Positions 20,939 through 42,037 of a DNA stretch of 45,191 nucleotides are shown here, one piece after another (position 1 is the first letter of the stretch; the number at the start of each line of letters is the position of its first letter). Origin of the DNA: Bacteroidales bacterium (GTDB lineage Bacteria > Bacteroidota > Bacteroidia > Bacteroidales > UBA7960); the NCBI GenBank assembly GCA_007125585.1, contig SLCY01000012.1, positions 73,627-118,817 of the forward strand. The letters are read 5' to 3'. The translations under genes were made by a program, and so were the position numbers. The notes below the pieces were generated by a model that made no database searches, was not told the DNA's origin, and worked only from the letters and a program-made list of their open reading frames with translations.

Positions 20939-20985
20939 GGGAATGATCTTTTGCAACAAACAATAGGAAACTTTACTAGACAAAG

Positions 20986-22573: not shown

Positions 22574-22576
22574 GCT

Positions 22577-23173: not shown

Positions 23174-23175
23174 CC

Positions 23176-26320: not shown

Positions 26321-27286
26321 TCAATCAACCGGCAACTTTATCAGTCGGCTGGTATGTGTCTGGATAGCTGAAGAAGCATCCCCGTAATTGTCCGTGTAGC
26401 CCAGGAGAAACCCTCCACCGCCCGCTCCACAGAGCTTCAAAGCATACTGCCCCGAAGTCAGGCCTTCAATCCATAATGACCTGAACGACTCCGGGATCAT
26501 TTCATGGAAAAGGTCGAGTTGAAGGTGGGATAGCCTGCTGATGTCCCGGCTTAGCCCCGTGTCACCGCACAGGGTTGCATCAATGCATGCGTCATTGAGG
26601 GCAATGTACTCCTGCCGGAGCATCTCATTGAATGCTTTGCTTTTCAGTTTTTGCTGAAAAATGGCCACCAGGGAAGATGTTTTTCTGGAGATCTGTGTGT
26701 TCACAAGAAAGAACCCCCCATCCCCTTTCCCGTTATTTGGCGGTAGAGGCGTTGAAACAGATACTTCCTGGTTGTGCCCGATCAAAAGCGGACGATCAAC
26801 AAACGCACTCAAAGGGTCAAGCCCTGAGCTGGCACCATGAAAGAACGCCTCCATGCTTGAGAAGATCATTTTCAGTTCGGCCAGATGCTGCGGAGATATT
26901 TTATCAGCCGGAAGCACAGGTTTTCGTGAGTACCGGGAAAAGACGGCCGCGACAAGTACGCCTGAACTGCCCAGCCCATAACCCGAGGGGATGTCTGAGG
27001 CAAGATAAATCCCACGACGAAGGTCTTCTGCAAAGGCATCCAGGTCAACAACACCCCTAATCAACGGCTCCGATTCCAGTTCATGAAGGAATTGAAGGAA
27101 GGCCAGCAGCTGTTTGTTGGAATGGTCAGCCATTCTCCGTAACCTCCAGTCCATCAAGGGTTCAGGGAAGTAAAGCGCTGCATTGTAGTGTTTGAAGGGT
27201 ATGGTGAGTGCCCTTGATCCGGCCATCAAACTGTACTCTCCAAAAAGCAGGATCTTCGCATGAAAACCCTTTGATTTTGTACGCAT
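26321..27286 (-). CDS. mvk: Mevalonate kinase (GHMP family)
   Basis: ATP-dependent phosphorylation of mevalonate, a step of the mevalonate route to IPP. The 321 residues begin MRTKSKGFHAKILLFGEYSLM, where the GEYxxxxG start motif of mevalonate kinases is clear; the upstream GTG at 27307 is less likely. The ATP loop SDIPSGYGLGSSG, the GASSGLDPLSAF stretch with the catalytic Asp, and the C-terminal KLCGAGGGGFLLGY are all present. Last gene of the mevalonate block, 49 bases after the decarboxylase. Substrate identity is supported by the family motifs and by the neighbours. Confidence 0.9.
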   Translation of the reverse strand: MRTKSKGFHAKILLFGEYSLMAGSRALTIPFKHYNAALYFPEPLMDWRLRRMADHSNKQLLAFLQFLHELESEPLIRGVVDLDAFAEDLRRGIYLASDIPSGYGLGSSGVLVAAVFSRYSRKPVLPADKISPQHLAELKMIFSSMEAFFHGASSGLDPLSAFVDRPLLIGHNQEVSVSTPLPPNNGKGDGGFFLVNTQISRKTSSLVAIFQQKLKSKAFNEMLRQEYIALNDACIDATLCGDTGLSRDISRLSHLQLDLFHEMIPESFRSLWIEGLTSGQYALKLCGAGGGGFLLGYTDNYGDASSAIQTHTSRLIKLPVD

Positions 27287-27335
27287 AATGATAATATTAA
27301 CAGTCACCGGATCGCCTCCTGCTGGAGAAACCCGG

Positions 27336-28433
27336 TTACTTGCTTCCGTGCGCTATCCTTTCCGGCCCGGTGCCCATCCCATCATCGATCCATCGGCCAT
27401 CCCGGCAAAGGCTTGTCAGCTCATCCCTGATGAATGGTATGACCTGTGCTGCATCTGATTCAGGATATATTAAGTGAATGTTTGGGCCGGCGTCGAGGGT
27501 AAAATAAGCATGTGCCCGGGTTTCTCTGCGAAACTCCCTGATTTTCTCCAACAACCGGATGGTGTTGGGGTGCATAAGGATGTATCCGGGGCTGGATGAC
27601 ATCATCAGGCTGTGCAGGCTGAGGGCTTCATTCTCAATTATTTCACCGAACAATGGCATCTCTCCCCTTTGCAGCGCATTCAACAACCTCCCCAGATTTG
27701 CGGAGGCCTGCTCCTTCCTTTGCTCCCGGTAAGGGTGATGATGCATCAGCGCATGTCCGGCAGAGCTGGAAACCTTCTTGGTACCGCTGTCCACGATCAG
27801 CACCGCGTCTTTCATTTTCATGAAGCGGCGATGAACATGGCGGCTTTCGAGTTTGACGGCGTATTCATCGGAGCTGCCTGGCAGCTGTTCTGTTTTACCC
27901 CATAAAACCATGCCGTCATAGATGGATCTGCAGGCACTCCCGCTACCCAGACGGGCCATAAAGGAAGCCCTGCGGAGAAACGCTTCAGTGCCCGGTGCCT
28001 TGCCGCTGATCTCAGCTTCAATACTGCAGACGCACAGTGCCAGCGCACTGAAAGCCGCAGCCGAGGATGCTATGCCCGCGGAATGGGGAAAGCTGCTCTC
28101 ACTGTCTATATGAATTTGTGCATGCTTCAGGAAAGGGAAGAACGGCACCAACCCTTCCAGGTAATTATCGATCCTTGACTTAAAAATGTCATTGACCTGC
28201 CCATTCAACGAAAAAGAAACCAATTCGAAAGGGCTGTCGGGATCAATTGAATAATCCATGCATATCTTTACCACGCTCCCTTTGAGGACAAAACTCAGTG
28301 ACGGATTCATGGGTATTTGTACCGGATATTTTCCCCAGTATTTTACCAGGGCGATGTTGGCCGGGCTTTGCCAGCATGTCTGGCCGGATGTTCTGGGAAA
28401 ATCTGTTGCCTGGCCTGATAACTGAATGGTCAT
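27336..28433 (-). CDS. mvaD: Diphosphomevalonate decarboxylase
   Basis: Converts mevalonate 5-diphosphate to IPP with ATP and loss of CO2. The 365 residues show the family signature SPANIALVKYWGK, the ATP-binding SAGIASSAAAFSALAL and the catalytic Asp in TLDAGPNIHLI. The start codon overlaps the stop of the upstream GHMP kinase (ATGA), so the two are translationally coupled. This enzyme is specific to the classical mevalonate route, which makes the pathway assignment of the whole block firm. Confidence 0.93.
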   Translation of the reverse strand: MTIQLSGQATDFPRTSGQTCWQSPANIALVKYWGKYPVQIPMNPSLSFVLKGSVVKICMDYSIDPDSPFELVSFSLNGQVNDIFKSRIDNYLEGLVPFFPFLKHAQIHIDSESSFPHSAGIASSAAAFSALALCVCSIEAEISGKAPGTEAFLRRASFMARLGSGSACRSIYDGMVLWGKTEQLPGSSDEYAVKLESRHVHRRFMKMKDAVLIVDSGTKKVSSSAGHALMHHHPYREQRKEQASANLGRLLNALQRGEMPLFGEIIENEALSLHSLMMSSSPGYILMHPNTIRLLEKIREFRRETRAHAYFTLDAGPNIHLIYPESDAAQVIPFIRDELTSLCRDGRWIDDGMGTGPERIAHGSK

Positions 28434-29377
28434 TTTTTGTTTTTTTTGTTGATCCGCATCGCTTCAAAAGGGATAATGGGGCCATGCCCTTTTTCTTTGA
28501 AATATTGAATGATCTCTTCTTTCTTCAGCTTTGATGCAGCGAGCAGAAAATCGCCGCCCCATGCTCCCAGTGACTTGACTGCACCGGGAAAACCAGTGAA
28601 GTGAGTGTGCTGAACAGGGTCCTTGCCCAAACACTTCCCGACAATGGATTCATGTCTGTGCATCATATCTGTGAAATCATCTATGCTGGTGGCAGAGGCC
28701 ATTCGCTCAGACAGTTCCGATATCTCCTCTGTCTGGGCAGCAGTCACTGCCCCCCTGTCAAAGCTTTTGAGGCTTTTCGCACTGTCTTGTTTATTGCCGC
28801 TGTAGATGAAAACCAGTTGATCACTAAACGGCGGGGCAAAGTCAACGGGCTGGACTACCGGATAATGATTTTTCCCGGAATATTTGTAAAGGATGGGTTG
28901 CTGGCTCCTGGCACAGGCAATGTCGTAGCCTGAACCGTCACCCACCCGGAAAAAGAGATCAAAGGGGTTGATATCTGCCCACCACGCGACATTGGAGATC
29001 AGCGAGGAGCTGCTTCCAAGCCCCCATTCAATGTCAAAATCAATATCACTGACAACCTTCCAATGCTGTTTTTCGGACAAAAAGGAAGGGTTAAGCTTCC
29101 TGGAAGCCCGCAACAACTGTTGAATGAAGACGACGGATTGACGCTGGCTGTCGGGATGTAAGGCTGTATCCGCATTCAGGTCATTGCCATGAAAAACGGC
29201 ATGCAGCCATGCTTTGCCCTGAATGTAACTGTGCCATGAGACTCGCGTGTTTGACGATGATTCTGATGCAATGCCCAGTGACTGTCCGTAGCGGACAGGC
29301 ATGGCCAATGCCCGGGAACCATTCAGCACCAGGTACTCTCCGGTGATCATCAGCTTGCCGTTGGATTTGAAATACAT
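28430..29377 (-). CDS. GYDIA-type GHMP kinase, candidate phosphomevalonate kinase
   Basis: The protein is 315 residues. It has the GHMP start (KSNGKLMITGEYLVLNG), the ATP loop WGLGSSSSLISN and the diagnostic GSGYDIACA motif that names the GYDIA family known from Bacteroidota mevalonate clusters. The C-terminal GAWGGDFLLA resembles the phosphomevalonate kinase motif GAGGGD. In the gene order it stands exactly where phosphomevalonate kinase is needed, between HMG-CoA reductase and the decarboxylase, and no other candidate is present. I infer that role; the family is established but the reaction is not proved here. It overlaps mvaD by four bases. Confidence 0.82.
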   Translation of the reverse strand: MYFKSNGKLMITGEYLVLNGSRALAMPVRYGQSLGIASESSSNTRVSWHSYIQGKAWLHAVFHGNDLNADTALHPDSQRQSVVFIQQLLRASRKLNPSFLSEKQHWKVVSDIDFDIEWGLGSSSSLISNVAWWADINPFDLFFRVGDGSGYDIACARSQQPILYKYSGKNHYPVVQPVDFAPPFSDQLVFIYSGNKQDSAKSLKSFDRGAVTAAQTEEISELSERMASATSIDDFTDMMHRHESIVGKCLGKDPVQHTHFTGFPGAVKSLGAWGGDFLLAASKLKKEEIIQYFKEKGHGPIIPFEAMRINKKNKK

Positions 29378-29534
29378 GGTTGGTGCTTCTTGATATAACG
29401 CCCGACTTGTTTCAGGGATCCTGGTGTTGCGCTACGCCCCCTGGTTTTTCAGTGTTCTGTATTCGAATTCATCGACGGCCACAACAACGGACCATGAAGC
29501 CTTTCAATTGTTCTCAGTGGACTGTAAGACGGGA

Positions 29535-30866
29535 TCAAGTGCCCCGTTTTCTTATGACTTCCAGGAATTGTGCGACAGCCTGGTATGAGATCTTTTCTTC
29601 TGCGAAATGTTTTTTAATATATCTTGCTTCTTCTTTGGTGGTGTTCAGTTGCATGATGATGTTGGACAGGTGCATCCGCATGTGGCCGGACTGGATCCCG
29701 GTGGTTGTAAGTGAGCGGATGGCCGCGAAGTTGTTTGCCAGTCCGGCAGCACCGGCGACCATCATCAGCGCTTTAGCATCAGGATTGCCGAGCATTTCGA
29801 GTGAACGGGCAGCAAGAGGGTGCAGGCGCGTCAGTCCCCCTACGGTGCCCAATGCCATGGGCATCTGCAATGAGAAAGAAAACCGGTTGTCTTGAACATC
29901 TGCCTGGCTCAGCGAACGGTATTGGCCTGATCTTGCAGCCCAGGCATGGGCACCGGCCTCAATGGCCCGAAAATCGTTGCCCGTGGCCAGGATCACAGCA
30001 TCCACCCCGTTCATGATGCCCTTGTTGTGCGTGGTGGCCCGGTATATATCTGACTCTGCAACTTTCAGTGCCAAAATAAAACGACGCACGAAAGCTTCTG
30101 CAGAAAGTTGTGGCGCTGCATGCCCCAGTGCATCAACATCGCAGGAAACGCTTACTTCTACCAGGCATTGATCATTGTAGTTGGAAAGGATGGCCATCAG
30201 GGGCTCATAATCATTTCGATCAAAGCCATCCGTATTGTCAAAAAACGAACCCAATGCAGAAGCAAACACTTCCAGGCATGAGTTGATGAAATTGGCACCC
30301 ATGGCATCGATGGTATCGAAGCGGACATGAAGCTGGAAATAGCCGTCAATGAGGTGGCGCCGGTCGTTGAGTGTGATTGTTCTGATGCCGCCCCCTCGCT
30401 GTTCCATGTTTTTTGTCACCGGTTTTGCTTCCGCCCGCAGCGATGATTCAATATCCGGCATGGCCGCCTTCAGTTTGTCCGCCGCACCCCCATAAAGGAA
30501 ATGCAACTGGCCATTTTTTATGTTCTGTGCGACCCTTGCATGGAATCCGCCTTTTTCAACCCAGAAGCGCGCGGCCGAAGAGGCGGCTGCAACCACCGAG
30601 CTCTCTTCGGTGACCATGGGTACCATGAAGAGCTTCCCGTTGATAAGAAAATTCGGGGCTACATTGTAAGGAAGGGGGTAATTGGAAATGGTATTTTCGC
30701 TGATGCCGGAAAGGATCTCCTGTGTTTCTTCGTCAGGATGTTGAAATGATTCAAATTGTTTTGCTGTTGATGCCGGGTCCTCAAACCTTTCTGACGCCAA
30801 AAGGAGTTTCTCTTGTGGTGACAATTTCGAAAACCCTTTCAATATCTTATTTTTTCCCATCTTCAA
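29535..30866 (-). CDS. mvaA: HMG-CoA reductase, class II type
   Basis: Reduces HMG-CoA to mevalonate with two NAD(P)H. The 443 residues carry VTEESSVVAAAS (catalytic Glu), the class II DAMGAN motif in the dinucleotide site, HNKGIMNGVDAV (catalytic Lys), the Asp-containing ATGNDFRAIEAGAHA, and the flexible C-terminal catalytic His in SGHMRMHLSN. Class II enzymes can also run in the degradative direction, but downstream kinases and decarboxylase indicate biosynthesis. A 163-base spacer separates it from the IPP isomerase gene and 157 bases from the next kinase. I saw no promoter in either spacer. HMG-CoA synthase is not in the window. Confidence 0.93.
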   Translation of the reverse strand: MKMGKNKILKGFSKLSPQEKLLLASERFEDPASTAKQFESFQHPDEETQEILSGISENTISNYPLPYNVAPNFLINGKLFMVPMVTEESSVVAAASSAARFWVEKGGFHARVAQNIKNGQLHFLYGGAADKLKAAMPDIESSLRAEAKPVTKNMEQRGGGIRTITLNDRRHLIDGYFQLHVRFDTIDAMGANFINSCLEVFASALGSFFDNTDGFDRNDYEPLMAILSNYNDQCLVEVSVSCDVDALGHAAPQLSAEAFVRRFILALKVAESDIYRATTHNKGIMNGVDAVILATGNDFRAIEAGAHAWAARSGQYRSLSQADVQDNRFSFSLQMPMALGTVGGLTRLHPLAARSLEMLGNPDAKALMMVAGAAGLANNFAAIRSLTTTGIQSGHMRMHLSNIIMQLNTTKEEARYIKKHFAEEKISYQAVAQFLEVIRKRGT

Positions 30867-31029
30867 TAACGTGTGATGTGTTTGGCAAAACTTGGTGTTT
30901 CGGCATTCTTTTTCAGCGTATTGTGTTCCGTGACCGGTTGTTGTCGTGTTGACTCAATCGGTGTTTTTGCTGCACGCTTAGATCAAACCGGGTGGCATGC
31001 CGGGCCATGTCTTCATGTTGGGTTGACGG

Positions 31030-32028
31030 TTATTCCCTTACCCGCAGGAAAGCATAGGCCATTTGCAAGCCTTTGACCTGATGCAGCACGAAGTTACGCA
31101 ATTGTGGATAATCTTCCCTGGCATATTTTAGGAAAGTGGAAGCCTGTCCGTATATGGCGGGGAGCCTGGATTTACGGATGAGGTAGTAGCCGTCCAGAAA
31201 CGATTTGATGCCTCCTGATATGATCAGTTGTTTGCAACGGATTTGATCCTGTTCCTGTTCAACGATATGGTTGACCATGTTTACCATCTGGGTGGCATCG
31301 TGGCCAATAAAAGACAATGGTTCAAACAGCTCTTTGGGCTGTTGGCTGTTGCGCATGAGTTCCACCCTGGCAAAATTGGTGCCGCCAAAGGCACCGAACT
31401 CAATGGCTGCGAGGGGCAGTTTCAGCAAGGCCCGTAAACTTTCCATGCCCATCCCTTGTCCCACCTCTTTGGCCATTACCGGAAAATCCACTTGGTCGAG
31501 CAGATCACGGACAGAATCGATGGCTGGTTGCTGGAGGCGGTCACCCTCGGGTTGAAACCATTCCTGGAAAGGGTTCACATGTATGATCAGCCCATCGGCC
31601 CGCAGTTTATCCACCAGCCTGATGATCTTATCCACTTTTTTCTCCATGAGCAGGATCTCCAGCTGGTTAACACCCAGGTTTGCGTAAAGTGGCAGGTCAT
31701 TGCCAATGATCTCACGCATATCGAAGTCATGAAGATACCTGTCGTCATCCATAATGATGCGGCAGGAGCCCAGCCCCATGCCCATGCCAAATTCGCGACA
31801 GGCCCTGGCCAGGTTCCTGTTGATGGTGCCCGCCAGTTTTGTGCCGCCGGTCATGCTCGACACCCATAGCGGCAATTGCATCTTTTTGCCGAGGAATTCT
31901 GTTTCGGGGATGTTATTGGAGGGATGGGCGCTTAGCACCGGTTCATACATGAAGCGCGCATCCATCTCGGGGACCAATGTTTGTGAAGCAAAGGCGAGGT
32001 CGATATGATCTCTTTTCCGGTCTTCCAT
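31030..32028 (-). CDS. fni: Type 2 isopentenyl-diphosphate isomerase (FMN-dependent)
   Basis: Interconverts IPP and DMAPP. The 332 residues start MEDRKRDHIDLAF, and the family motifs are PLWVSSMTGGTKLAGTINRN (FMN site), MGLGSCRIIMDD, NPFQEWFQPEGDR and the phosphate-binding AFGGTNFARVE. A C-terminal phosphate loop, SGGIKS, is also present. Type 2 isomerases are usual with mevalonate-pathway bacteria. The gene begins only 14 bases after the acyl-CoA dehydrogenase stop, so the two should share one mRNA from the promoter at 33244-33251. Confidence 0.93.
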   Translation of the reverse strand: MEDRKRDHIDLAFASQTLVPEMDARFMYEPVLSAHPSNNIPETEFLGKKMQLPLWVSSMTGGTKLAGTINRNLARACREFGMGMGLGSCRIIMDDDRYLHDFDMREIIGNDLPLYANLGVNQLEILLMEKKVDKIIRLVDKLRADGLIIHVNPFQEWFQPEGDRLQQPAIDSVRDLLDQVDFPVMAKEVGQGMGMESLRALLKLPLAAIEFGAFGGTNFARVELMRNSQQPKELFEPLSFIGHDATQMVNMVNHIVEQEQDQIRCKQLIISGGIKSFLDGYYLIRKSRLPAIYGQASTFLKYAREDYPQLRNFVLHQVKGLQMAYAFLRVRE

Positions 32029-32042
32029 ATACAGGACGTTTT

Positions 32043-33197
32043 TTACACGCCGAGATAGCGCGAGATAACCAGGCGGAGGATCTCCGAGGTGCCTTCTCCG
32101 ATTTGCAGGAGGCGCTGGTCGCGATAAAAGCGTTCCACAGGGTGGGGCTTGAACAAGCCTTTGGCACCATGTATCTGTACAGCTTCGTCAGCTATTTCAC
32201 GGGCGATTTCGGAGGCATACAACTTGGAAATGGCGGCTTCCCTTGCAAACTGCATGTTGTTGTCTTTTCTCCAGCAGGCGTTATAAAGGGTGTTACGGGC
32301 GAGTTCTGTCTTCACGTCCATGTCTGCAAGCTTAAAACCCACTGCCTGAAACTTGGAGATGGGTTTTGCAAACTGAACCCTTTCCTTTGAATATTCCAGG
32401 GATGCTTCCATGGCCCCCAGTGCAAGGCCGAGTCCGATGGCCGCAATAGACAAACGGCCTGCGTCAAGGGTGTTCAGCATGATGCGGCCACCATAGCCCT
32501 CCTCTCCAAGCAGGTTCCCGGCGGGGACCTTGCAGTCTTTGAAAAACAGTTTGCCGGTGTCGCTCGCACGCCACATCATTTTTTGCTTGCTCGGCTCAGT
32601 GGTAAAGCCAGGGGTCCCACGCTCCACAATGATGGCAGACAATTGCTTCCTGCCATTTTTTTGGCCGGTGACTGCCTGGAGGGTGACACCACCGGAAATT
32701 GAAGAAGCAGAATTGGTAATGTGTGTTTTGGTACCGTTGATCAGCCAAAAGCCATTTTCCAACGTGGCGGTGGTTTCGGTACCCATGGCATCTGAACCAG
32801 CTTTTTCCTCAGTCAACCCAAATGCCCAGGTCATCTTGCCCGTAGACAATGGGGGGATAAAGCGCCTTTTTTGCTCCTCTGTGCCGTATTTCATTATCGG
32901 CGCTATAGCCAGCGAGTTCACAGCAGCCACCGTAGCGGCCTGTGAACTGTCAACCCTTGCCAGCTCCTCTACGATGATAATGTAGGAAAGGGTGTCTAAA
33001 TTTTGACCACCAAGCTCTTTGGGCACCTGGATCCCAAAGAACCCCATATCACCCATCTTTGCGGTGAGCTCCAGGGAAAAGGTCTCCGTTTCATCCAAAT
33101 CTGCAGCCAAAGGTTTGATCTCCCGCTCTGCAAACTCACGAACCCGCATTCTGAGCGTCTCGTGAGCCTCTGTTACAAAAGGATTGCTTAACATCAA
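32043..33197 (-). CDS. Acyl-CoA dehydrogenase, probably acting on isovaleryl-CoA
   Basis: FAD enzyme of 384 residues that oxidises acyl-CoA at the alpha-beta bond. Motifs: FGLTEEKAGSDA, ERFYRDQRLLQIGEGTSEILR. The catalytic base Glu sits at residue 368, the position used by short-chain (SCAD-like) enzymes; human isovaleryl-CoA dehydrogenase uses a different Glu and has Ala at this place. So the fold does not by itself prove isovaleryl-CoA as substrate. The surrounding methylcrotonyl-CoA carboxylase and hydratase genes make that substrate likely. It has its own promoter and is followed 14 bases later by IPP isomerase. Confidence 0.88.
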   Translation of the reverse strand: MMLSNPFVTEAHETLRMRVREFAEREIKPLAADLDETETFSLELTAKMGDMGFFGIQVPKELGGQNLDTLSYIIIVEELARVDSSQAATVAAVNSLAIAPIMKYGTEEQKRRFIPPLSTGKMTWAFGLTEEKAGSDAMGTETTATLENGFWLINGTKTHITNSASSISGGVTLQAVTGQKNGRKQLSAIIVERGTPGFTTEPSKQKMMWRASDTGKLFFKDCKVPAGNLLGEEGYGGRIMLNTLDAGRLSIAAIGLGLALGAMEASLEYSKERVQFAKPISKFQAVGFKLADMDVKTELARNTLYNACWRKDNNMQFAREAAISKLYASEIAREIADEAVQIHGAKGLFKPHPVERFYRDQRLLQIGEGTSEILRLVISRYLGV

Positions 33198-33243
33198 CGA
33201 AGGATTAATTTATGTTTTTTTAGGACTTGGTGATATAATATAA

Positions 33244-33251
33244 CAAAAATA
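33244..33251 (-). promoter_or_regulatory. -7 box of the acyl-CoA dehydrogenase/fni unit
   Basis: TATTTTTG on the minus strand matches TAnnTTTG, 46 bases before the ATG at 33197. It lies in the 133-base gap after the biotin carboxylase gene. The -33 region is T-rich (CTTTTAC) without an exact match. Confidence 0.55.
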
Positions 33252-33330
33252 TCCGGCTGTGGTTCTGTAAAAGTATAAAAAAAATCTTTATCTGCATTCC
33301 TTCGTTGTTTCACCAAGGTGTTCAATGTTA

Positions 33331-35322
33331 TTATATCAGCTTATCGGTTAATTGGATTAACAGACTGTTGTCTTCGACCATGTCACCGTCTTTGACACTG
33401 ATCTGTTTTACATAGGCTTTGGCTGTAGCAATGATCTTGTTTTCCATCTTCATTGACTCAAGCACCAGCAATGTGTCTCCTTTGTTTACCTCGTCGCCGG
33501 GCTCTACATTGATTTTTATAACAGTACCGTGCATTGGCGCCTTGATAAGGCTTTCCCCCTCAAGCACCGGATTTTTGTTGATCTCCCTGAGGGTTTCTTT
33601 ACCAAGATGGCATGCAGGACATACGGTGGCAGTGACACCCTCGTGCTGAAAAATGACTTCACCATTCACGGAATGATAAAACAATGTATGAATATTGCCG
33701 CCGACATCAATGCGCATGGAATGGGAGTCTCTCTCCAGCAAACGATAGGTGATCTCCCTGTCACGACCGGTGATACTCATGTGGTATGCATTGTGGTATA
33801 GGTATCTCTGTTGCAGCAACTTTTTGTTGATTAAGAGTTTGGTGGTTGGTAAAAGGCGCCACGCCCCAATCCGATGCCAGGTGTTTTTTCCCTGGTGGTC
33901 GTTAGTGGGATTGGCAAAAATAAAGGCCATTGCAAGGAGGTTGTTGTCAATTTCATTGCCTCCCTCTTTCTGTTTCCGTTCTAAAAATCCGGCTGCGGCC
34001 CCGGTATCAATGTTTCCTTCGATAAAGTCCCGGGAATTTATCAGGTCGATCAACAAAGAAATGTTTGTCTGTACTCCCAGCAGTACGTAGTTTTTCAGAT
34101 GGTGTTGAAGTTTTTTCCTTGCTGTTTCCCTGTCTGACGCATGAGAGATCACTTTGCTTACCATGGGGTCAAAAAGACTGCTTATCTCCCCCCGTTTGTC
34201 AAGTGCGGTATCTATTCGCAGGCCTTTGCCCTCAGGTGTTTTATGGTAAAGCACCTTCCCCGGGGAAGGCAAAAACCCTTTTGCCGGGTCTTCAGCATAA
34301 ACTCTGGCTTCTATGGCATGTCCATTTATTTTGACATCTTCCTGGGAAAAAGGGATGGGTTCGCCCATCGTTATCCTGATCTGTTCCCTGACGATGTCTA
34401 TCCCGGTAATCATTTCGGTTACAGGATGTTCTACCTGGATCCGTGTATTCATCTCCAGGAAATAAAAGTTACTGTCCTGCACCAGGAATTCTACTGTGCC
34501 TGCGTTTCTGTATCCGATATCCCTGGCCAGCAGGATGGCTGCACGCATCAGCTTGTTGCGCAGGCTATCTGAGACCATCGGGGCCGGCGCCTCTTCAATG
34601 ATCTTTTGGTGGCGACGTTGCAGGGAGCATTCTCTTTCGAACAAGGTCACCACGTTGCCATGATGATCAGCCAAAAGTTGTATCTCAATATGTCGGGGGC
34701 CGGGCAGGTATTTTTCTATGTATACCTCATCGTTGCCGAAATATTTTTTTGCTTCGCGCCGGGTACTTTCCAGGATCTCCCCGAGTTCAGCGGCGGATCC
34801 TGCAACGCGCATCCCTTTTCCGCCGCCACCGGCTGCAGCTTTGGCCATGATTGGAAAACCGATATGACTCGCTTTTTCCATTAACAAGGGGATCTCTCCT
34901 GTAGCACCTTCAATTATGGGGATTCCCAGCTTGCTTGCCAGTGCTCTGGCCTCCCTCTTGTTCCCCATCAGGCGGATGGCGTTTTCTGTCGGCCCGATAA
35001 ACAGTAGCCCCGCTTCCTGTACCGACCTTGCAAACAATGGGTTTTCAGACAAAAACCCGTATCCCGGATGTATGGCATCTGCTTTGCATTGACGGGCAAT
35101 GCTTACCAACTGCTCAATGTTCAGGTAGGTGTCTGCCAATCCCTTGCCAGCAAGGAGATATCTTTCATCTGCCTCACTTACATGCATCGACCCCCCGTCG
35201 GCCTCCGTATAGACGGCTACCGAGGCAACACCCATTTGATGGAGTGTTTTGAATATCCGCACAGCGATTTCACCACGGTTGGCCACCAAAACTTTATTGA
35301 TATGCTTCATGCCTTTTACCAT
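33331..35322 (-). CDS. Methylcrotonyl-CoA carboxylase alpha subunit (biotin carboxylase + biotin carrier)
   Basis: Carboxylates its own biotin with ATP and bicarbonate. The 663 residues hold an N-terminal biotin carboxylase (KVLVANRGEIAVRI, the ATP-grasp loop AAAGGGGKGMRV, EMNTRIQVEHPVTE) and a C-terminal biotinyl domain with the target Lys in ESMKMEN (about 630). The ~130-residue linker fits acyl-CoA carboxylases. Partner is the carboxyltransferase at 36249-37856. The ATG follows the hydratase stop with no gap; an inner Met at residue 5 is also possible. Acetyl- or propionyl-CoA carboxylases share this layout, but the beta subunit and hydratase point to methylcrotonyl-CoA. Confidence 0.9.
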   Translation of the reverse strand: MVKGMKHINKVLVANRGEIAVRIFKTLHQMGVASVAVYTEADGGSMHVSEADERYLLAGKGLADTYLNIEQLVSIARQCKADAIHPGYGFLSENPLFARSVQEAGLLFIGPTENAIRLMGNKREARALASKLGIPIIEGATGEIPLLMEKASHIGFPIMAKAAAGGGGKGMRVAGSAAELGEILESTRREAKKYFGNDEVYIEKYLPGPRHIEIQLLADHHGNVVTLFERECSLQRRHQKIIEEAPAPMVSDSLRNKLMRAAILLARDIGYRNAGTVEFLVQDSNFYFLEMNTRIQVEHPVTEMITGIDIVREQIRITMGEPIPFSQEDVKINGHAIEARVYAEDPAKGFLPSPGKVLYHKTPEGKGLRIDTALDKRGEISSLFDPMVSKVISHASDRETARKKLQHHLKNYVLLGVQTNISLLIDLINSRDFIEGNIDTGAAAGFLERKQKEGGNEIDNNLLAMAFIFANPTNDHQGKNTWHRIGAWRLLPTTKLLINKKLLQQRYLYHNAYHMSITGRDREITYRLLERDSHSMRIDVGGNIHTLFYHSVNGEVIFQHEGVTATVCPACHLGKETLREINKNPVLEGESLIKAPMHGTVIKINVEPGDEVNKGDTLLVLESMKMENKIIATAKAYVKQISVKDGDMVEDNSLLIQLTDKLI

Positions 35323-36096
35323 TTACCATTCAGGCTTTCGTTTTTCTTTAAATGCCTGTATGCCTTCCCGGGCTTCTTTCCCTTTTTTTATCTCTTTCAG
35401 AACGTTGGCTGTATGATCAAACAATTGTTTGTTCATTGGTTTGCTGCTCACTTCAATGATCAGCTGTTTGCACATTTTTGTTGCCTCTGGGGCATTTTTA
35501 AGGATTTCCGTGCAAAGATATGCTTTGTATTTTTCTAATTCATCCGGGGTCCCTGACTTGTCAATCAATCCGGCTGCCAGCGCATCTTCTGTTCCAAAAG
35601 TGATCCCTGATAGCATGAGCTGGCGCGCCCTGAACTCTCCAGTGCGGCGGACCACAAAAGGAGTGATCGTAGCCGGTATGAGCCCGAGTCGTACTTCACT
35701 GAATGCAAATTCTGCGGTGTCGACAGCCAGCACAAAGTCCGCTCCTGCCATCAGTCCCAATGCACCCCCCATTGCTGTGCCGTGGACCAAAACGATCATA
35801 GGCTTTGAAAAAGAATAGACCGCATTGAAAAGCTTTGGAAGAAGCACCGCTGGTTGCTGGTTTTCAGGAAGTTCCTGCCGGCTCATCCAGGCAAGGTCTG
35901 CGCCGGCAGAAAAGATTTTCCCTTTGCCGCGCAGCACAACAACCTTTATCTGATCGTCGGCTTCCGAAGCCTTTAGCACATGCAGCAATTCACCGGCCAT
36001 GTGCTGATCGATGGCATTCCTTTTGTCTGTCCGTGCCAGATGAATCGTAAGGATCTGTGATTCACAGTCAGTATGTAAACTTGTGTATGGGGCCAT
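35323..36096 (-). CDS. Enoyl-CoA hydratase, predicted 3-methylglutaconyl-CoA hydratase
   Basis: Crotonase-fold protein of 257 residues. The start MAPYTSLHTD (36096) is preferred; an ATG at 36126 would add ten residues. Motifs: RTDKRNAIDQ, KIFSAGADLAWM (oxyanion hole), GTAMGGALGLMAGADFVLA and FAFSEVRLGLIPATITPFV, in which the two acidic catalytic residues usual for hydratases lie (Glu in FSEVRLG). Set between both methylcrotonyl-CoA carboxylase subunits, so it most likely hydrates 3-methylglutaconyl-CoA to HMG-CoA. This product is the substrate of the HMG-CoA reductase encoded downstream. Confidence 0.85.
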   Translation of the reverse strand: MAPYTSLHTDCESQILTIHLARTDKRNAIDQHMAGELLHVLKASEADDQIKVVVLRGKGKIFSAGADLAWMSRQELPENQQPAVLLPKLFNAVYSFSKPMIVLVHGTAMGGALGLMAGADFVLAVDTAEFAFSEVRLGLIPATITPFVVRRTGEFRARQLMLSGITFGTEDALAAGLIDKSGTPDELEKYKAYLCTEILKNAPEATKMCKQLIIEVSSKPMNKQLFDHTANVLKEIKKGKEAREGIQAFKEKRKPEW

Positions 36097-36248
36097 TTCT
36101 ATACAATAATTTAGGATCCGATGCAATCATTGTGAAAACGTCAATGCGATCATTTCAACATTCATGTTCTCAATCTTCCAAAGTTTTTTTTGCCTTACCC
36201 ATTTGCAATCTGTTTTTCTTTGCGACAGGGGTCGGTCATGACGGCTTA

Positions 36249-37856
36249 TCACATCCTGTAAACACCGCTGTGGGGTTCCCCGAACTTTTTGTTGAGGGAT
36301 GTTGCGATGGCAAGGGCCAGCACCTGTCTTGTCTGCATCGGTTCAATGATCCCATCATCCCATAATCGTGATGAACTATAATATGGTGATCCTTCTTCCT
36401 CGTATTTTTCGAGGATGCTGGCTTTTATTGCCTCAAGCTCTTTCGGGTCTGCTTTCATCCCCCTGGCTTCCACTTGGTCTGCCTTCACCTGGGCCAGTAC
36501 CATTGCCGCCTGTTGTCCGCCCATTACGGAAATTCTCGCACCGGGCCACATGAAGAGGAAGTGTGGATCAAAAGCCCTGCCTGCCATTGCATAGTTTCCT
36601 GCTCCGTAAGAGCCACCGGTAATGACGGTAAATTTGGGAACGGAGGCGTTGGCGACGGCATGTACCAGTTTGGCCCCATCCCTTGCCAGTCCTGCGTTTT
36701 CATACACCTTGCCCACCATGAAGCCGGTGATGTTCTGCAAAAAGAGGATCGGCACCCTTCTGAAGTTGCACAACTGTATGAAGTGGGTCCCTTTCAGTGA
36801 TGATTCGGCAAAGAGTACGCCGTTGTTGGCGATGATGCCGACGGGGTACCCCATGATATGTGCGAATCCAGTCACGAGGGTGGTGGCGTATCTTGCTTTG
36901 AACTCATGGAAGCGGCTGCTGTCCGTGAGCCGGGCGATCACCTCATAGGGATCTGTTTGTTTTTTTTGATCGGCCTGCAAGATGCCTGTGAGTTCTTGAG
37001 GGTCATAATGAGGTTCTTCAGATGTCCTGATATCGAGTTGCTGTTTGCCATGGGGCTGCAAGGTTTCAAATATGCTGCGGCAGATCGATATGGCGTGTTG
37101 GTCGTTTTCTGCAAAGTGATCGGCTACACCCGATCTGGTGGTGTGTACCTCTGCGCCACCAAGGTCTTCGGGTGTTACCACCTCACCGGTAGCTGCTTTA
37201 ACCAGGGGTGGGCCGCCAATGAAGATGGTTCCCTGGTTCTTGACAATGATGGTTTCATCGCTCATAGCGGGGATGTAAGCACCACCTGCGGTGCATGATC
37301 CCATCACCAGGGCAATTTGCGGACAACCCCTGGCAGATAGTTGTGCCTGATTGAAAAATATGCGCCCGAAGTCGTCCCTGTCAGGAAACACCTCTGCCTG
37401 GTTGGGAAGAAAGACTCCCCCCGAGTCAACCATATAAACACAGGGCAGGTTGTTTTGCATGGCAATTTCCTGCGCCCTGACATGCTTACGTATGGTCTCC
37501 TTCACATAGGTGCCTCCTTTTACCGTGGCATCGTTGGCGATAATGAGTGCCTCCCTGCCGTGAATCACACCAATACCGGTTACTATGCCAGCACCAGGGA
37601 AATTGTCGTCGTATTGCCCGTAAGCTGCCAGTGTAGATAACTCCAGAAAGGGGGTGCCGGGATCGATCAGCAGGTCTATCCTTTCCCGTGCCAGCAACTT
37701 TCCCCTGGCACGGTGTTTTTCCGTGGCATGTTCAGGCCCTCCCTGCATCACACGGTGCATGATATCACGATGCTTCTCAAGGATTGCAGCATAGTGCTTC
37801 TTGTTTTCCAGAAACTCCGGACTGTCGGGATTAACGTGTGAAGGAATGGTGTACAT
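36249..37856 (-). CDS. Methylcrotonyl-CoA carboxylase beta subunit (carboxyltransferase)
   Basis: Transfers CO2 from carboxybiotin to 3-methylcrotonyl-CoA in leucine breakdown. The 535 residues carry the strong family signature VYMVDSGGVFLPNQAEVFPD followed by RDDFGRIFFNQAQLSARGCP, then VMGSCTAGGAYIPAMSDE and GGPPLVKAATGEVV, and in the second half LQNITGFMVG and VITGGSYGAGNYAMAGR. The VDSGG/LP-x-Q-x-EVFPD stretch is typical of MCC-beta rather than propionyl-CoA carboxylase. It starts the leucine-type block. A weak -7-like box (TACATTTT) lies upstream in the 106-base gap. Confidence 0.93.
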   Translation of the reverse strand: MYTIPSHVNPDSPEFLENKKHYAAILEKHRDIMHRVMQGGPEHATEKHRARGKLLARERIDLLIDPGTPFLELSTLAAYGQYDDNFPGAGIVTGIGVIHGREALIIANDATVKGGTYVKETIRKHVRAQEIAMQNNLPCVYMVDSGGVFLPNQAEVFPDRDDFGRIFFNQAQLSARGCPQIALVMGSCTAGGAYIPAMSDETIIVKNQGTIFIGGPPLVKAATGEVVTPEDLGGAEVHTTRSGVADHFAENDQHAISICRSIFETLQPHGKQQLDIRTSEEPHYDPQELTGILQADQKKQTDPYEVIARLTDSSRFHEFKARYATTLVTGFAHIMGYPVGIIANNGVLFAESSLKGTHFIQLCNFRRVPILFLQNITGFMVGKVYENAGLARDGAKLVHAVANASVPKFTVITGGSYGAGNYAMAGRAFDPHFLFMWPGARISVMGGQQAAMVLAQVKADQVEARGMKADPKELEAIKASILEKYEEEGSPYYSSSRLWDDGIIEPMQTRQVLALAIATSLNKKFGEPHSGVYRM

Positions 37857-37962: not shown

Positions 37963-39243
37963 TTAATGCTTCTTCATTTTTTTCCATAGCCTCGCGGCGT
38001 GCTTTTTTGATTCTTTAAACACCGACTCCGTATCAATGGTTTGAACTTGCCGGTTTTTTACCAGCAACTTGCCTTTGGCGATCACATCCGTGACATGGGA
38101 TGTGTTGAGACCAAAGATAAAATGGCCGGGGAAATTGTTTTGGTTGACCTCGGTAGGACTGTCATAATCCAGCACCACCAGATTGTTTTCGCTGTCGCCG
38201 GCGAAATTGTTTTGTGCGAGATATCGGTGTACATTACGGAAACGCTGATATACCGACATAAAGTCGAGCTTTTCGCAGGTCTGCCCTGCGAAAAAAGCCG
38301 CTTTCGCACTTCTGAGCATGTCGCTGTGCATGCCGTCGGTGCCGAGCATGATATTGTCGCCCAGGCCTTGGCTGGTAAAGCAACCTACTTTGTTTTTCAG
38401 GTTGCTTTCCATGTTTTCGACGATCCAGCATGGTTTTTTCTTTATCATCTTTCGCTCCCTGGCGTCCAGATGCAATCCGTGGACCAGGATGGTTTTTGGC
38501 GAATCCAGGACACCTGCCTCGTTAAGTCGTTGTGTTACCTGCTGATAATAAGTTTGCAGGCAATGATCCTGGTCATATCTGTCTTCGGCCAGGTGCATGT
38601 GGATGCCACTGTTGTATTGTTGCATCAACGCCATGGCCTTTTGGAGGGTTTTAGGACCCACGGTAAAGGAAGCATGAAGTCCGACGAGCCCTTGCCGTTG
38701 TTGAAGATACCTTTCTGTCTCTTCCAGTCCTTTCCTTGCCTTATCCGTTCCGTCACGGTCGGTGGCCTCATAACAAAGCAAATGGCTAATTCCCACTTCA
38801 TCAAAAGCGTCGGCGATGATATCCAACGATCCTTCGATACAGTTGGGAGAGGCGTGATGGTCAATGACGAAGGTGGCACCTGCTTTTGCTGCGGCAATGG
38901 CCGTGGCCAAAGCACTGTAGCGGATGGTGTCGGAGTCGAGACTTTTGTCAAGTGTCCACCAGATGTACTTCAGTATCTCACGGAAGTCAGCGGGTGGCTT
39001 CGGGGGCGGTGGCATGCCCCTGGCCAGTGCCGAATAGACATGGTGGTGGCCAACAGCAAATGATCTGGTCACCAGCTTCCCTGAGCAGTCGATCACCTCA
39101 TGCCGGCTTGCTTCCGCGACCTCTTTCTCGTCTGTCACCCAACGAATGCTACCCTTTGGACCTTCTTCCACGAGAAGGTCGCCAGTCCTGAAGTTGAGCG
39201 TGTCCCATTCAATGAATGTGGTGTTCTTTAGTAAAATGTCCAT
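37963..39243 (-). CDS. SsnA-like amidohydrolase/deaminase
   Basis: Metal-dependent amidohydrolase of 426 residues, close in pattern to E. coli SsnA of the purine-catabolism region: FAVGHHHVYSALARGM (metal His pair), YIWWTLDKSLD, VIDHHASPNCIEGSL, CYEATDRDG, HMHLAEDRYD, ILVHGLHLD and LGTDGMHSDM. The family includes guanine, chlorohydrolase-like and unknown deaminases. SsnA has no proven substrate. Neighbouring xanthine dehydrogenase makes a role in purine or related heterocycle breakdown plausible. The 181-base gap upstream contains a 7-bp tandem repeat and a CATTCA/TGAATG hairpin. Confidence 0.85.
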   Translation of the reverse strand: MDILLKNTTFIEWDTLNFRTGDLLVEEGPKGSIRWVTDEKEVAEASRHEVIDCSGKLVTRSFAVGHHHVYSALARGMPPPPKPPADFREILKYIWWTLDKSLDSDTIRYSALATAIAAAKAGATFVIDHHASPNCIEGSLDIIADAFDEVGISHLLCYEATDRDGTDKARKGLEETERYLQQRQGLVGLHASFTVGPKTLQKAMALMQQYNSGIHMHLAEDRYDQDHCLQTYYQQVTQRLNEAGVLDSPKTILVHGLHLDARERKMIKKKPCWIVENMESNLKNKVGCFTSQGLGDNIMLGTDGMHSDMLRSAKAAFFAGQTCEKLDFMSVYQRFRNVHRYLAQNNFAGDSENNLVVLDYDSPTEVNQNNFPGHFIFGLNTSHVTDVIAKGKLLVKNRQVQTIDTESVFKESKKHAARLWKKMKKH

Positions 39244-39361
39244 AGAAAAAATATGTTTCTAAGTGTATGTGTTTTTTTGAATAATTCCATTCAGTAAAGT
39301 GAATGCCCCGTCGTGATTTTTGTTGAAAAAAAGTGTAAACCTATTTCAGGACGAGACATAA

Positions 39362-39403
39362 TCCTTCTTCTTTCTTCTTACTTTATACTGCTTACTTCTT
39401 ACT
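39362..39403 (-). repeat. 7-bp tandem repeat array
   Basis: Read on the minus strand: AGTAAGA, AGTAAGC, AGTATAA, AGTAAGA, AGAAAGA, AGAAGGA, six 7-base units. It lies between the xanthine dehydrogenase stop and the SsnA-like gene. Unit and sequence differ from the 8-bp arrays of the rnf operon. Confidence 0.7.
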
Positions 39404-39424
39404 ACCAGTGCCCCGAGCCAATGA

Positions 39425-42037
39425 TCAACCCCGCTTAACCGGCAGCTCCTTCTTCATCTCCCCATCATACGCCGCATACGCATTGGCCACGGCGGCGGCC
39501 GTAGGCACCATGCCTATTTCGCCGATCCCTTTTGCACCGTAAGGTCCGTGCGGGTCCTTTGCTTCAATGCCTATCACCTCAACATCAGGCATGTCTTTGC
39601 AGCGAATGATGCCGAGGTCTTTCAACTTTGTATCTGGCAGTTTGCCTTCTTCCATGGCGAGATTCTCGGTGAGCGCATAACCCACTCCCATGTGGACAGC
39701 GCCATGGATCTGCCCTTCAAACAGTGTTGGGTTCATGATCCTGCCCGCATCATGTGCGGCAATCACTTTTCTGATGCTTCCATCATCGTTCAGAATGACA
39801 ACCTGTGTGGCATAGCCGTAAGAAAAATGAATTTTGGGGTCTGCGATGTTCTCGCCAGGCTTGCAGGTCCAGTCGCATACGTATTTTCCTTTATAAACAT
39901 GACCCGAAAGGTGATCCAGCGCTTTTTCAATGTTGTTGTTGCCTGAAAGGTCTTCTCTGATTTTTATTGCTGCATCGATGATGGCATTGCCCAGCAAGGC
40001 GGTGCCCCTTGATGATGTCGTCATTCCTGTTGGCACATTTTCCTGTGTGTCAACCACCACTTCAATGATTGACGGGTCAATACCTGTTTCCTGGTGAAGC
40101 GTCTGAATGGCCATGGTATGAATTCCCTGCCCCATTTCCGTCCAGCCGTGATGGATCTTTACTTTTTTTCCGGATATTATTTCGATCTTCACCTCGCTTT
40201 CATCTGTCATGCCATTGCCCACCCCAGAATTTTTCAGGGTACATGCGATGCCTGCGTACCTTGCATTTTCAAAATCTTCTTTCACGGCAAGCAATGTTTC
40301 TTTCAGTCCCACGCCTTCCAGCTTTTGTCCGGTGGCAGTTGTTGCACCATCACACAAGGCATTGTTGTATCGCATTTGCCAGCGGCTGAACCCTCCCTGA
40401 CGGCACAAATCGTCTATACACGACTCCAGTGCAAAGACCACCTGGGGAACACCAAAGCCGCGCATGGCACCCGATGGTATGTTGTTGGTGTAGATTGTTT
40501 TGGCATTGAGTTCCACGGCCGGTATTGTGTATCCTCCGGTAGCATGTCCCACCACCCTTTCCATGACCTTTGTGCCGACAGAGGCGTAGGCACCCGTGTC
40601 GCCCAGGGCGTTCAACCTGATGGCCGTCAGTTTCCCCTCTTTATCGCAGCCCAGCTGCATGTCCATCCACACAGGATGTCGCTTGGGGTGCATGCGGATG
40701 GACTCTTGCCTGTTCAGGTGTACTTTTACAGGCTTTTTCATCAGCCATGCAAAGAGACCGGCATGTCCCTGCACAGTGAGGTCCTCTTTGCCGCCAAAGC
40801 CACCGCCATTGGCAACCTGTGTTACCTTCACCATCTCCTCTTTCAGTCCAAGGATCTGGGCCACCTGTTTCCTGTCAACATACACTCCCTGTCCCTGGCT
40901 GTAAAGCCTGATGCCCTTATCTTCCGGCATGGCGATGGCGCACTCCGTTTCAAGAAAGGCATGCTCTACACGCTGGGTCTTGTAAACAGCTGAGGAAACG
41001 AAGGCAGCATCCTGAAAGGCTTTTTCGGTGTCACCAAACTGTATACTACAGGTTTCCAACACATTGGATCTGCCTTGGTGAACCTGTATGCCGCCGGGTT
41101 TTGCCGCCTCATGAATGTCATACACCGGATCCAGCACTTCATAATCGACCCGGATCATCGCGGCTGCTTTCCTGGCAATTTCCTCTGTTTGCGCTACCAC
41201 ACCGGCAAGCACATCGCCGATATAATGGGTAATCTCTCCTGAATCAATCATCAAAGGCCAGTCCCGGAATATCAGGCCTGCCATTTTATCTCCGGGGATG
41301 TCCCGGGCAGTGAATACGCGAACAACCCCTTCCAATGCTTCGGCTGACGAAACATCAACATCCCGGACCTTTGCCCGGGGATGGTCTGTGAATTTCAATG
41401 CGCCATAAAGCATGTCATCGAAAAACATATCATCAACAAAGGCGCGTGCACCCAATGCGGTGTCGTAGGACTGGTATTTCGGCCAGGCTTCTCCGATGCC
41501 TGCTTTGCCGGGTACGTCGGTGATGTTGCCGCCGTTGTTTGCTATCAGGGCCGCTTCAATGGCGTCAACGATCTTGATGTAACCCGTGCAGCGGCATAGG
41601 TTGGGATTGATGGTGCGGATGATCTCATCCCTGGATGGCCGCCCCTTTTTCCCGAACAATTTTTTTGACCGCATGATAAATCCTGGTGAGCAAAACCCGC
41701 ACTGAACGGCACCATGTGCAGCAAACAAGGTGCCGATGAAACGCCGGAAATTTTCCGGCAAGCCCTCCGTGGTAATGATATTTGCGTCCGCCAGGTCTTT
41801 TATCCGTGTCCGGCAGGCCAGTTTCGCCTTGCCATTGATCTCCACGGTGCATGCACCGCAGCTTCCTTCACCGGAGCAACCGTCCTTCGGCGATGTGATC
41901 TGATGCTGTGAACGCAGATAGGGCAGCAGCATCCTGCCGGTATCTCCGCTATACCTGTGTAACTTGCCGTTGATGGTAAATGCGATCATCTCTTGGTACT
42001 GTCTGGGTTTGTTTTGAACATGTTGCTCTTTCGGCAT
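39425..42037 (-). CDS. Xanthine dehydrogenase, fused iron-sulfur and molybdopterin subunits (selenium-dependent type)
   Basis: Molybdenum hydroxylase of up to 870 residues; a start at 41989 (MIAFTINGK) is equally plausible. The N-terminal part has the [2Fe-2S] ligands DGCSGEGSCGACTV and CGFCSPGFIM with NLCRCTGY. The C-terminal part has the molybdopterin domain: GGGFGGKEDLTVQGHA, SGAMRGFGVPQ and the catalytic Glu in AKGIGEIGMVPTAA. The compact fused layout without a central FAD domain fits the selenium-dependent XDH / XdhD type, which needs a labile selenium cofactor (no selenocysteine codon). An FAD partner subunit is not in the window. Predicted to hydroxylate xanthine or a related heterocycle. 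Confidence 0.9.
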   Translation of the reverse strand: MPKEQHVQNKPRQYQEMIAFTINGKLHRYSGDTGRMLLPYLRSQHQITSPKDGCSGEGSCGACTVEINGKAKLACRTRIKDLADANIITTEGLPENFRRFIGTLFAAHGAVQCGFCSPGFIMRSKKLFGKKGRPSRDEIIRTINPNLCRCTGYIKIVDAIEAALIANNGGNITDVPGKAGIGEAWPKYQSYDTALGARAFVDDMFFDDMLYGALKFTDHPRAKVRDVDVSSAEALEGVVRVFTARDIPGDKMAGLIFRDWPLMIDSGEITHYIGDVLAGVVAQTEEIARKAAAMIRVDYEVLDPVYDIHEAAKPGGIQVHQGRSNVLETCSIQFGDTEKAFQDAAFVSSAVYKTQRVEHAFLETECAIAMPEDKGIRLYSQGQGVYVDRKQVAQILGLKEEMVKVTQVANGGGFGGKEDLTVQGHAGLFAWLMKKPVKVHLNRQESIRMHPKRHPVWMDMQLGCDKEGKLTAIRLNALGDTGAYASVGTKVMERVVGHATGGYTIPAVELNAKTIYTNNIPSGAMRGFGVPQVVFALESCIDDLCRQGGFSRWQMRYNNALCDGATTATGQKLEGVGLKETLLAVKEDFENARYAGIACTLKNSGVGNGMTDESEVKIEIISGKKVKIHHGWTEMGQGIHTMAIQTLHQETGIDPSIIEVVVDTQENVPTGMTTSSRGTALLGNAIIDAAIKIREDLSGNNNIEKALDHLSGHVYKGKYVCDWTCKPGENIADPKIHFSYGYATQVVILNDDGSIRKVIAAHDAGRIMNPTLFEGQIHGAVHMGVGYALTENLAMEEGKLPDTKLKDLGIIRCKDMPDVEVIGIEAKDPHGPYGAKGIGEIGMVPTAAAVANAYAAYDGEMKKELPVKRG

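Follow-up and report, generated by a model that had tools for sequence, protein, structure and literature searches.

A stretch of 45,191 nucleotides from a Bacteroidales bacterium (lineage UBA7960, assembly GCA_007125585.1; contig SLCY01000012.1, positions 73,627 to 118,817), analyzed at its full length and referred to as the window, carries a block of nine genes in which leucine degradation genes run into mevalonate pathway genes. Judging from the encoded proteins, this block is likely to make isopentenyl diphosphate (IPP) and dimethylallyl diphosphate (DMAPP) without 3-hydroxy-3-methylglutaryl-CoA (HMG-CoA) synthase, starting from isovaleryl-CoA and hence ultimately from leucine or isovalerate. 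In the proposed route, an acyl-CoA dehydrogenase (ACAD) would convert isovaleryl-CoA to 3-methylcrotonyl-CoA, 3-methylcrotonyl-CoA carboxylase (MCC) would carboxylate the latter to 3-methylglutaconyl-CoA, and a hydratase would add water to give HMG-CoA, which HMG-CoA reductase (HMGR) would turn into mevalonate. Mevalonate kinase, a GYDIA-family kinase and a decarboxylase would then lead through mevalonate 5-phosphate and 5-diphosphate to IPP, and an isopentenyl-diphosphate isomerase (IDI) would interconvert IPP and DMAPP.

The block spans positions 26321-37856, and its nine open reading frames all lie on the minus strand, encoding in order of transcription MCC-beta, an enoyl-CoA hydratase, MCC-alpha, ACAD, IDI, HMGR, the GYDIA kinase, the decarboxylase and mevalonate kinase; all nine were located where an earlier note on this DNA had placed them. 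The leucine and mevalonate halves meet at a junction of 14 bases between the ACAD and IDI genes (32029-32042, minus strand), the very distance given in that note; its further claim that both genes lie behind one promoter found no confirmation in promoter-pattern scans of the block. No Bacteroidota-type -33/-7 promoter pattern occurs within the block, and sigma-70-type matches number 16, compared with 11.2 ± 3.1 in shuffled sequences. Terminator-like sites number 24 on both strands of the window (14.6 ± 4.0 in shuffles), and none of the nine on the minus strand falls in a gap of the block. From its layout, the block is probably one functional unit, transcribed as one operon.

We compared this genome, a draft of 2.57 Mb in 120 contigs and 96.5% complete, with 149 genomes of the order (itself included), 247 genomes of the class, nearly all of them drafts, and the best 80 of at least 588 named loci, taken as stretches of up to 10 kb on each side of HMGR (G and L numbers are our handles for genomes and loci). 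HMG-CoA synthase was sought with PF01154, with the archaeal-type model TIGR00748 (order only) and with A1, an alignment of 11 Bacteroidia HMG-CoA synthases. As PF01154 scores Bacteroidia synthases at just 72-82 bits, we rejected it as sole proof of absence, built A1 and repeated the searches of order and class. In the genome itself, PF01154 and A1 found no synthase, and TIGR00748 gave background matches only (best E value 4.7e-7). The best match to the HMG-CoA lyase model NF004283 was likewise at background level (E value 1.4e-7). The earlier note had seen neither gene in the block, and the genome-wide search for synthase together with lyase that it proposed detected neither in this 96.5%-complete genome.

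Across the order, PF01154 was positive in 2 of 149 genomes (G012 and G047), whose synthases are of the archaeal type (511 and 528 bits with TIGR00748, all other matches being below 70 bits); A1 reached about 70 bits in these two and less than 28 bits in four others. HMGR was present in 47 genomes, which we sorted by our own judgment into 42 of block type, hereafter the mevalonate genomes, and five others (G010, G016, G035, G123 and G128). The 42 include two genomes whose HMGR is a fragment (G075, and G117, where a contig edge is close) and two with no GYDIA gene beside HMGR (G005, at a contig end, and G053). The synthase was undetected in all 47 HMGR genomes, and none of the three models found it in any of the 42 mevalonate genomes, including the 12 whose halves are joined as in the window (fused genomes); both synthase carriers lack HMGR of any kind. 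Nor was a synthase found in the stretches around the 80 named loci, or near the HMGR of unfused relatives, where the scanned recurrent neighbors were pheT, a sigma-54 activator, LptE, a TPR protein and a chaperonin; a plasmid search returned distant HMGRs only. In the class, A1 found a synthase in 11 of the 247 genomes, with scores of 597-748 bits; at most six candidates were scored per genome and some genomes had more, which makes the class figures softer than those for the order. An HMGR of about 440-490 residues occurs in 41 class genomes (one as a contig-edge fragment), including all 11 with a synthase, and no synthase was found in 30 of the 41. GYDIA lay within 1.5 kb of HMGR at nine out of nine class loci examined. 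With synthase and lyase undetected, hydration of 3-methylglutaconyl-CoA is the remaining known producer of HMG-CoA, and HMGR its remaining known consumer.

The same gene order, which the earlier note had suggested looking for in relatives, is complete on one contig in nine of the 149 genomes from seven families (the genome studied here, G032, G146, G042, G051, G136, G080, G020 and G093) and near-complete in three more: G131 has no kinase before the contig end, G138 has no MCC-alpha in place, and the contig of G014 begins within MCC-alpha, with the kinase 1.4 kb away. These 12 fused loci span nine families. Their ACAD-IDI gap has a median of 12 bp (range -29 to 102, window included), and the other seven junctions have medians between -4 and 46 bp, which is operon-like. 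The other 30 mevalonate genomes do not have the halves joined in this way; in them HMGR-GYDIA-decarboxylase-kinase, in some cases preceded by IDI, lies elsewhere, in several genomes beside housekeeping genes. The block is present in full at only one of the 80 named loci, that of the nearest named relative (L151, Bacteroidales bacterium isolate CSSed10_347, PWNY01000415.1), with an MCC-beta 86% identical; two Ancylomarina loci among the 80, one of them L153 of the cultured Ancylomarina euxinus, run from ACAD through IDI, HMGR, GYDIA and decarboxylase to mevalonate kinase, and a Bacteroidales metagenome-assembled genome (L226) has MCC-alpha, ACAD and HMGR in this order. The fused genomes do not form one clade in a quick HMGR tree (approximately unbiased test, p 6e-7), which points to fusion on several occasions, or else to reversal or transfer; the MCC-beta tree has too little resolution to bear on this. 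One unfused relative carries an apparently decayed mevalonate locus (L086, G075:C31), with a full-length IDI, an HMGR remnant of about 60 codons and no match to GYDIA, decarboxylase or kinase in the 20 kb stretch.

These surveys bear on an alternative in which leucine catabolism and the mevalonate pathway are both of the ordinary kind and mere neighbors, the synthase having been missed in an incomplete genome or as a divergent protein. The genome is indeed a draft in many contigs, the halves are not joined in this way in most mevalonate genomes, and one relative (G040) carries mevalonate genes although searches for synthase and MCC both came up empty, so that it must draw HMG-CoA from a source not yet recognized. 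We nevertheless consider this alternative improbable: three models failed in every mevalonate genome, the same models did detect a synthase elsewhere, in 11 class genomes and in two of the order, and chance loss through incompleteness in 12 fused genomes would have a probability of about 10^-17 if losses were independent. In addition, members of nine families share the joined arrangement, and the lyase is undetected in all of them.

For the lyase, a homologue was counted when it exceeded 100 bits with NF004283, whose NCBI cut-off is 246 bits. Such homologues occur in 40 of 149 order genomes, with best scores of 172-204 bits and none above the cut-off. The 12 fused genomes are all without one, as against 22 carriers among the 30 remaining mevalonate genomes (naive Fisher p 1e-5); restricting the count to genomes of 90% completeness or more gives 0 of 10 and 20 of 27. 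The stretch around MCC-beta holds a lyase homologue in 11 of the 30 unfused genomes (G103, G134, G110, G100, G005, G119, G046, G048, G073, G075 and G117), the remaining stretches being short or free of one, and in six of them (G134, G110, G005, G119, G048 and G075) it directly follows ACAD, where fused genomes carry IDI. Among the named loci, L166 shows a homologue of the lyase close to HMGR. Absence of the lyase would close the catabolic exit, so that leucine-derived HMG-CoA could go only to mevalonate.

The proposed direction of flux is opposite to that of a known pathway, the myxobacterial alternative isovaleryl-CoA synthesis (Aib), in which 3-methylglutaconyl-CoA likewise connects leucine breakdown to the mevalonate pathway; the Aib route leads from HMG-CoA to isovaleryl-CoA and needs a synthase. 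The leucine half might run in this reverse sense here as well, making isovaleryl-CoA for the iso-branched lipids that are typical of the phylum, and the two order genomes with an archaeal-type synthase and no HMGR do carry MCC-beta and hydratase-type genes. Reversal would, however, require HMG-CoA from a synthase, which was not found in the genome studied here, and we regard this reading as highly improbable. The synthase genes of these two relatives lie at L099 (G012:C342) and L100 (G047:C132), the latter next to a thiolase and an OB-fold gene, and neither genome has a lyase homologue above 100 bits. Their synthase and MCC-beta may possibly form a reverse route to isovaleryl-CoA.

In the leucine half, MCC-beta, the carboxyltransferase subunit (535 residues; 36249-37856, minus strand), matches PF01039 with 502 bits. 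Its best match in the PDB is the MCC beta subunit 3u9r (701 bits), followed at a distance by geranyl-CoA carboxylase 5ikl (452 bits) and 1vrg, named propionyl-CoA carboxylase (283 bits); two entries named otherwise nearly equal 3u9r (4q0g, AccD1, 694 bits, and 9tps, 'propionyl-CoA carboxylase beta', 693 bits). MCC-alpha (663 residues; 33331-35322, minus strand) combines biotin carboxylase and biotin carrier (PF02786, PF00289, PF02785 and PF00364), and the block contains both of the MCC subunits that mark the Liu (leucine/isovalerate utilization) pathway. The enoyl-CoA hydratase family protein (267 residues; 35323-36126, minus strand; PF00378, 169 bits) is a probable 3-methylglutaconyl-CoA hydratase, a substrate suggested by its context rather than its sequence: it scores 198 bits with NF005675 and 189 bits with the gamma-carboxygeranoyl-CoA hydratase model NF004227, both under the cut-off, and its PDB matches include isohexenylglutaconyl-CoA hydratase 4zu2 (111 bits). 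ACAD (384 residues; 32043-33197, minus strand) is proposed to act on isovaleryl-CoA from its context, because family models and PDB scores favor short-chain or butyryl-CoA types (best match 5ol2, 'acyl-CoA dehydrogenase', 355 bits; short-chain or butyryl-CoA dehydrogenase entries 283-304 bits).

The near-equal hydratase scores raise the question of whether carboxylase and hydratase act on terpenoid acyl-CoA, as in geranyl-CoA or Atu-type degradation, instead of on leucine intermediates. An AtuA gene does occur in the MCC operon of one relative, but the block's nine proteins contain no AtuA domain, and MCC-beta scores far higher to MCC than to geranyl-CoA carboxylase, making a terpenoid substrate very unlikely. 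The gene in that relative (G031; L102:13376-15178), of the AtuA family (acyclic terpene utilization), lies between MCC-alpha and ACAD, and no clear lyase homologue was seen there.

Turning to the mevalonate half, the type 2 IDI (332 residues; 31030-32028, minus strand) scores 200 bits with TIGR02151 (cut-off 281) and 117 bits with PDB entry 1vcf. The decarboxylase, a predicted diphosphomevalonate decarboxylase (365 residues; 27336-28433, minus strand), scores 155 bits with TIGR01240 (cut-off 171), matches PF22700 and PF18376, and scores 132 bits with PDB entry 6n0x. The GYDIA-family GHMP kinase (315 residues; 28430-29377, minus strand; NF040656, 306 bits, cut-off 225) is a probable phosphomevalonate kinase: its structural model has a mean predicted local distance difference test score (pLDDT) of 94, and its Foldseek matches are GHMP kinases, the best including mevalonate kinases and phosphomevalonate kinase 3gon (template modeling (TM) score 0.70). 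The mevalonate kinase-like GHMP kinase (328 residues; 26321-27307, minus strand) reaches 65 bits with TIGR00549 (cut-off 163), and a sequence search of the PDB returned no mevalonate kinase for it. Its assignment comes from the predicted fold (pLDDT 91), the 18 best Foldseek matches all being mevalonate kinases, including four chains whose titles read just MKvar or MKbur, with TM scores of 0.54-0.65 to the query at 16-18% identity and galactokinases ranking next. HMGR, mevalonate kinase, phosphomevalonate kinase and decarboxylase, which act after HMG-CoA in the classical mevalonate pathway, are all present, with substrates predicted from sequence and fold. The family assignments of the earlier note thus hold broadly, with the mevalonate kinase, decarboxylase and isomerase falling below NCBI equivalog cut-offs.

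HMGR itself is of class II type (443 residues; 29535-30866, minus strand; PF00368, 291 bits; PDB 7n7s, 392 bits), and E88, K282, D298 and H395, which we take to be its catalytic residues, are invariant in 11 sequences (the window and 10 relatives). Its nearest NCBI model is the NAD-dependent 'degradative' TIGR00532, at 257 bits for a cut-off of 260, which would suit a catabolic block in which HMGR runs from mevalonate to HMG-CoA and the leucine genes carry on from there. Mevalonate catabolism of the Pseudomonas mevalonii type shares the HMGR but requires HMG-CoA lyase, which none of the fused genomes was found to have, and it would leave the two kinases, the decarboxylase and the isomerase without a role; we consider a catabolic block extremely unlikely.

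Three relatives (L053, L073 and L080) carry a MenA/UbiA-type prenyltransferase gene, scoring below NCBI cut-offs, directly after mevalonate kinase, an arrangement that fits an isoprenoid product. The genome studied here encodes a second, different HMGR of about 390 residues (G000:C118:8273-9373; L007, L033; PF00368, 414 bits) beside a mechanosensitive channel gene, as do two other genomes of the genus (L034 and L036); the 20 kb stretch around it holds no block-type mevalonate gene. Further HMGRs of about 735-780 residues occur at L041-L044 (G128, G010, G124 and G123), and the scanned ones (L042, L043 and L044) bear a C-terminal APH-type phosphotransferase domain; such a protein could both reduce HMG-CoA and phosphorylate the product.

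What feeds the block can be approached from its first substrate. None of its genes acts before isovaleryl-CoA, and isovalerate is common in anaerobic habitats; external isovalerate is as possible a source as leucine. A block that serves as an isovalerate-to-isoprenoid route, fed by isovalerate or a different branched acid after its uptake and activation, is conceivable, yet we hold it to be the less probable version, as leucine is the usual source of isovaleryl-CoA. Starting from leucine, the conversion of 2-ketoisocaproate to HMG-CoA would release four electrons in two oxidations and HMGR would use four, so that the path from 2-ketoisocaproate to mevalonate is redox-neutral by stoichiometry.

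The distribution of MCC within the order agrees with a link between the two halves. MCC-beta at a minimum identity of 59% occurs in 38 of the 42 mevalonate genomes, compared with 23 of the 107 others (Fisher 4e-15, ignoring kinship and counting two fragments). Of the four mevalonate genomes below this threshold, G053, G062 and G084 have their best match at 44-45% identity, and G040 at 34%, the level of propionyl-CoA carboxylase.

Several observations weigh against the proposed route from isovaleryl-CoA to IPP and DMAPP. G040 (L064, G040:C68), at 97% completeness, has HMGR, GYDIA, decarboxylase and kinase, and neither synthase, lyase nor an MCC-beta above propionyl-CoA carboxylase level was found in it, leaving its HMG-CoA source unexplained. 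Outside the order, an MCC-like gene (at least 42% identity) is found in 38 of 40 HMGR genomes and in 37 of 40 controls; MCC-like genes are not discriminating there, and support for extending the reading to the class comes solely from the undetected synthase. In relatives, the lyase homologues all score below the 246-bit cut-off, so that lyase is their presumed identity, and eight unfused mevalonate genomes also lack a homologue. Because close kin share their fusion and lyase state, the association between the two comes down to three (at most five) independent pairs on supported branches of the HMGR tree, for which a sign test is not significant. ACAD scores 212-228 bits against PDB entries named isovaleryl-CoA dehydrogenase and by score does not belong to that subfamily. 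In the window, four junctions other than ACAD-IDI have gaps of 122-163 bp, giving room for internal promoters, and the second HMGR elsewhere in the genome means that HMG-CoA may have another use. Finally, the genome also has genes of the methylerythritol phosphate (MEP) pathway, and the need for a leucine route is therefore not proven.

For the MEP pathway, we covered the Dxr and IspG steps. Dxr scores 455 bits in this genome and is present in 142 of 149 order genomes; among the mevalonate genomes it was not seen in three, namely G046, G084 (77% complete) and G101 (decarboxylase and kinase not seen beside HMGR). Should the genomes G046 and G101 prove complete, both would have to rely on the proposed route. 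IspG is encoded within the window (14604-15986, 460 residues; TIGR00612, 361 bits, cut-off 280), and is also matched, over two separate parts of its length, by two longer NCBI models. With these genes present, leucine need not be the sole source of IPP, and the gene content suggests that the block is probably a second, leucine-fed IPP supply beside MEP, or one for other conditions. The idea in the earlier note that leucine carbon reaches isoprenoids while bypassing acetyl-CoA condensation finds partial support, as far as the undetected synthase and lyase and the conserved gene order go; the note did not mention the MEP genes, and by score the dehydrogenase falls outside the isovaleryl-CoA subfamily.

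Elsewhere in the window, an SsnA-like aminohydrolase and a selenium-dependent xanthine dehydrogenase are encoded directly upstream of the block (37963-42037), and genes of the same families precede the block in a relative of the same genus (L054). Genes of an Rnf complex, a ferredoxin-linked ion pump, lie at 18486-23754 (RnfB, C, D and A identified).

Parts of this arrangement are known from other systems. The Liu operon has the same four genes, MCC-beta, hydratase, MCC-alpha and acyl-CoA dehydrogenase; here, in contrast, its terminal lyase is undetected and five mevalonate genes come instead. Flavobacteria are mevalonate users, with Elizabethkingia anophelis and Flavobacterium branchiophilum lacking any MEP enzyme, and passages of the paper describing them report HMGR, mevalonate kinase and decarboxylase, with no canonical phosphomevalonate kinase found and another GHMP kinase suspected (PMC4026382). 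That pathway resembles the mevalonate half described here but starts from acetyl-CoA via HMG-CoA synthase (PMC4026382), whereas here the synthase is undetected, leucine genes adjoin and MEP genes are present. The closest parallel is found in trypanosomatids (Trypanosoma brucei, Leishmania and T. cruzi), where, according to passages of a 2018 paper that calls direct leucine incorporation unique to this group, leucine reaches sterol through HMG-CoA directly, not via acetyl-CoA, with isovaleryl-CoA dehydrogenase, MCC and 3-methylglutaconyl-CoA hydratase supplying HMG-CoA straight to HMGR (PMC5993337). The trypanosomatid route is eukaryotic and mitochondrial, and T. brucei has HMG-CoA synthase and a putative lyase gene (PMC5993337); the one proposed here belongs to a bacterium, lies in one gene block and has neither gene detected. 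The main text of a 2026 paper on the diversity of bacterial isoprenoid pathways contains no words beginning with leucine or bacteroid (PMC13001223), and our search of the open-access literature, beyond whose reach most subscription papers lie, turned up no description of leucine genes adjoining those of the mevalonate pathway in one block. Leucine-to-mevalonate flux is thus known in trypanosomatids beside a synthase, and a bacterial gene block without one appears to be new, as far as this literature goes.

Taken more widely, we lean toward the view that the Bacteroidales mevalonate pathway has no acetyl-CoA entry and obtains HMG-CoA from branched-chain amino acid breakdown, and that several lineages fixed this by gene joining and lyase loss, making leucine or isovalerate a dedicated isoprenoid precursor beside MEP. 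Many Bacteroidia with this HMGR (30 of 41 in our sample) may also run a synthase-less mevalonate pathway, which the class survey allows. If true, the block would represent a bacterial route to isoprenoids whose starting point is an amino acid, not acetyl-CoA or pyruvate and glyceraldehyde phosphate, contained in one gene block and distinguishable from the classical pathway simply by which genes are present. An annotation that scores pathways for completeness would label such genomes as having an 'incomplete mevalonate pathway' and overlook the route. It would explain how Bacteroidales have a mevalonate pathway without HMG-CoA synthase, provide a compact module of natural origin that turns leucine into isoprenoids, and tie amino-acid or isovalerate supply to the synthesis of quinones and lipid carriers.

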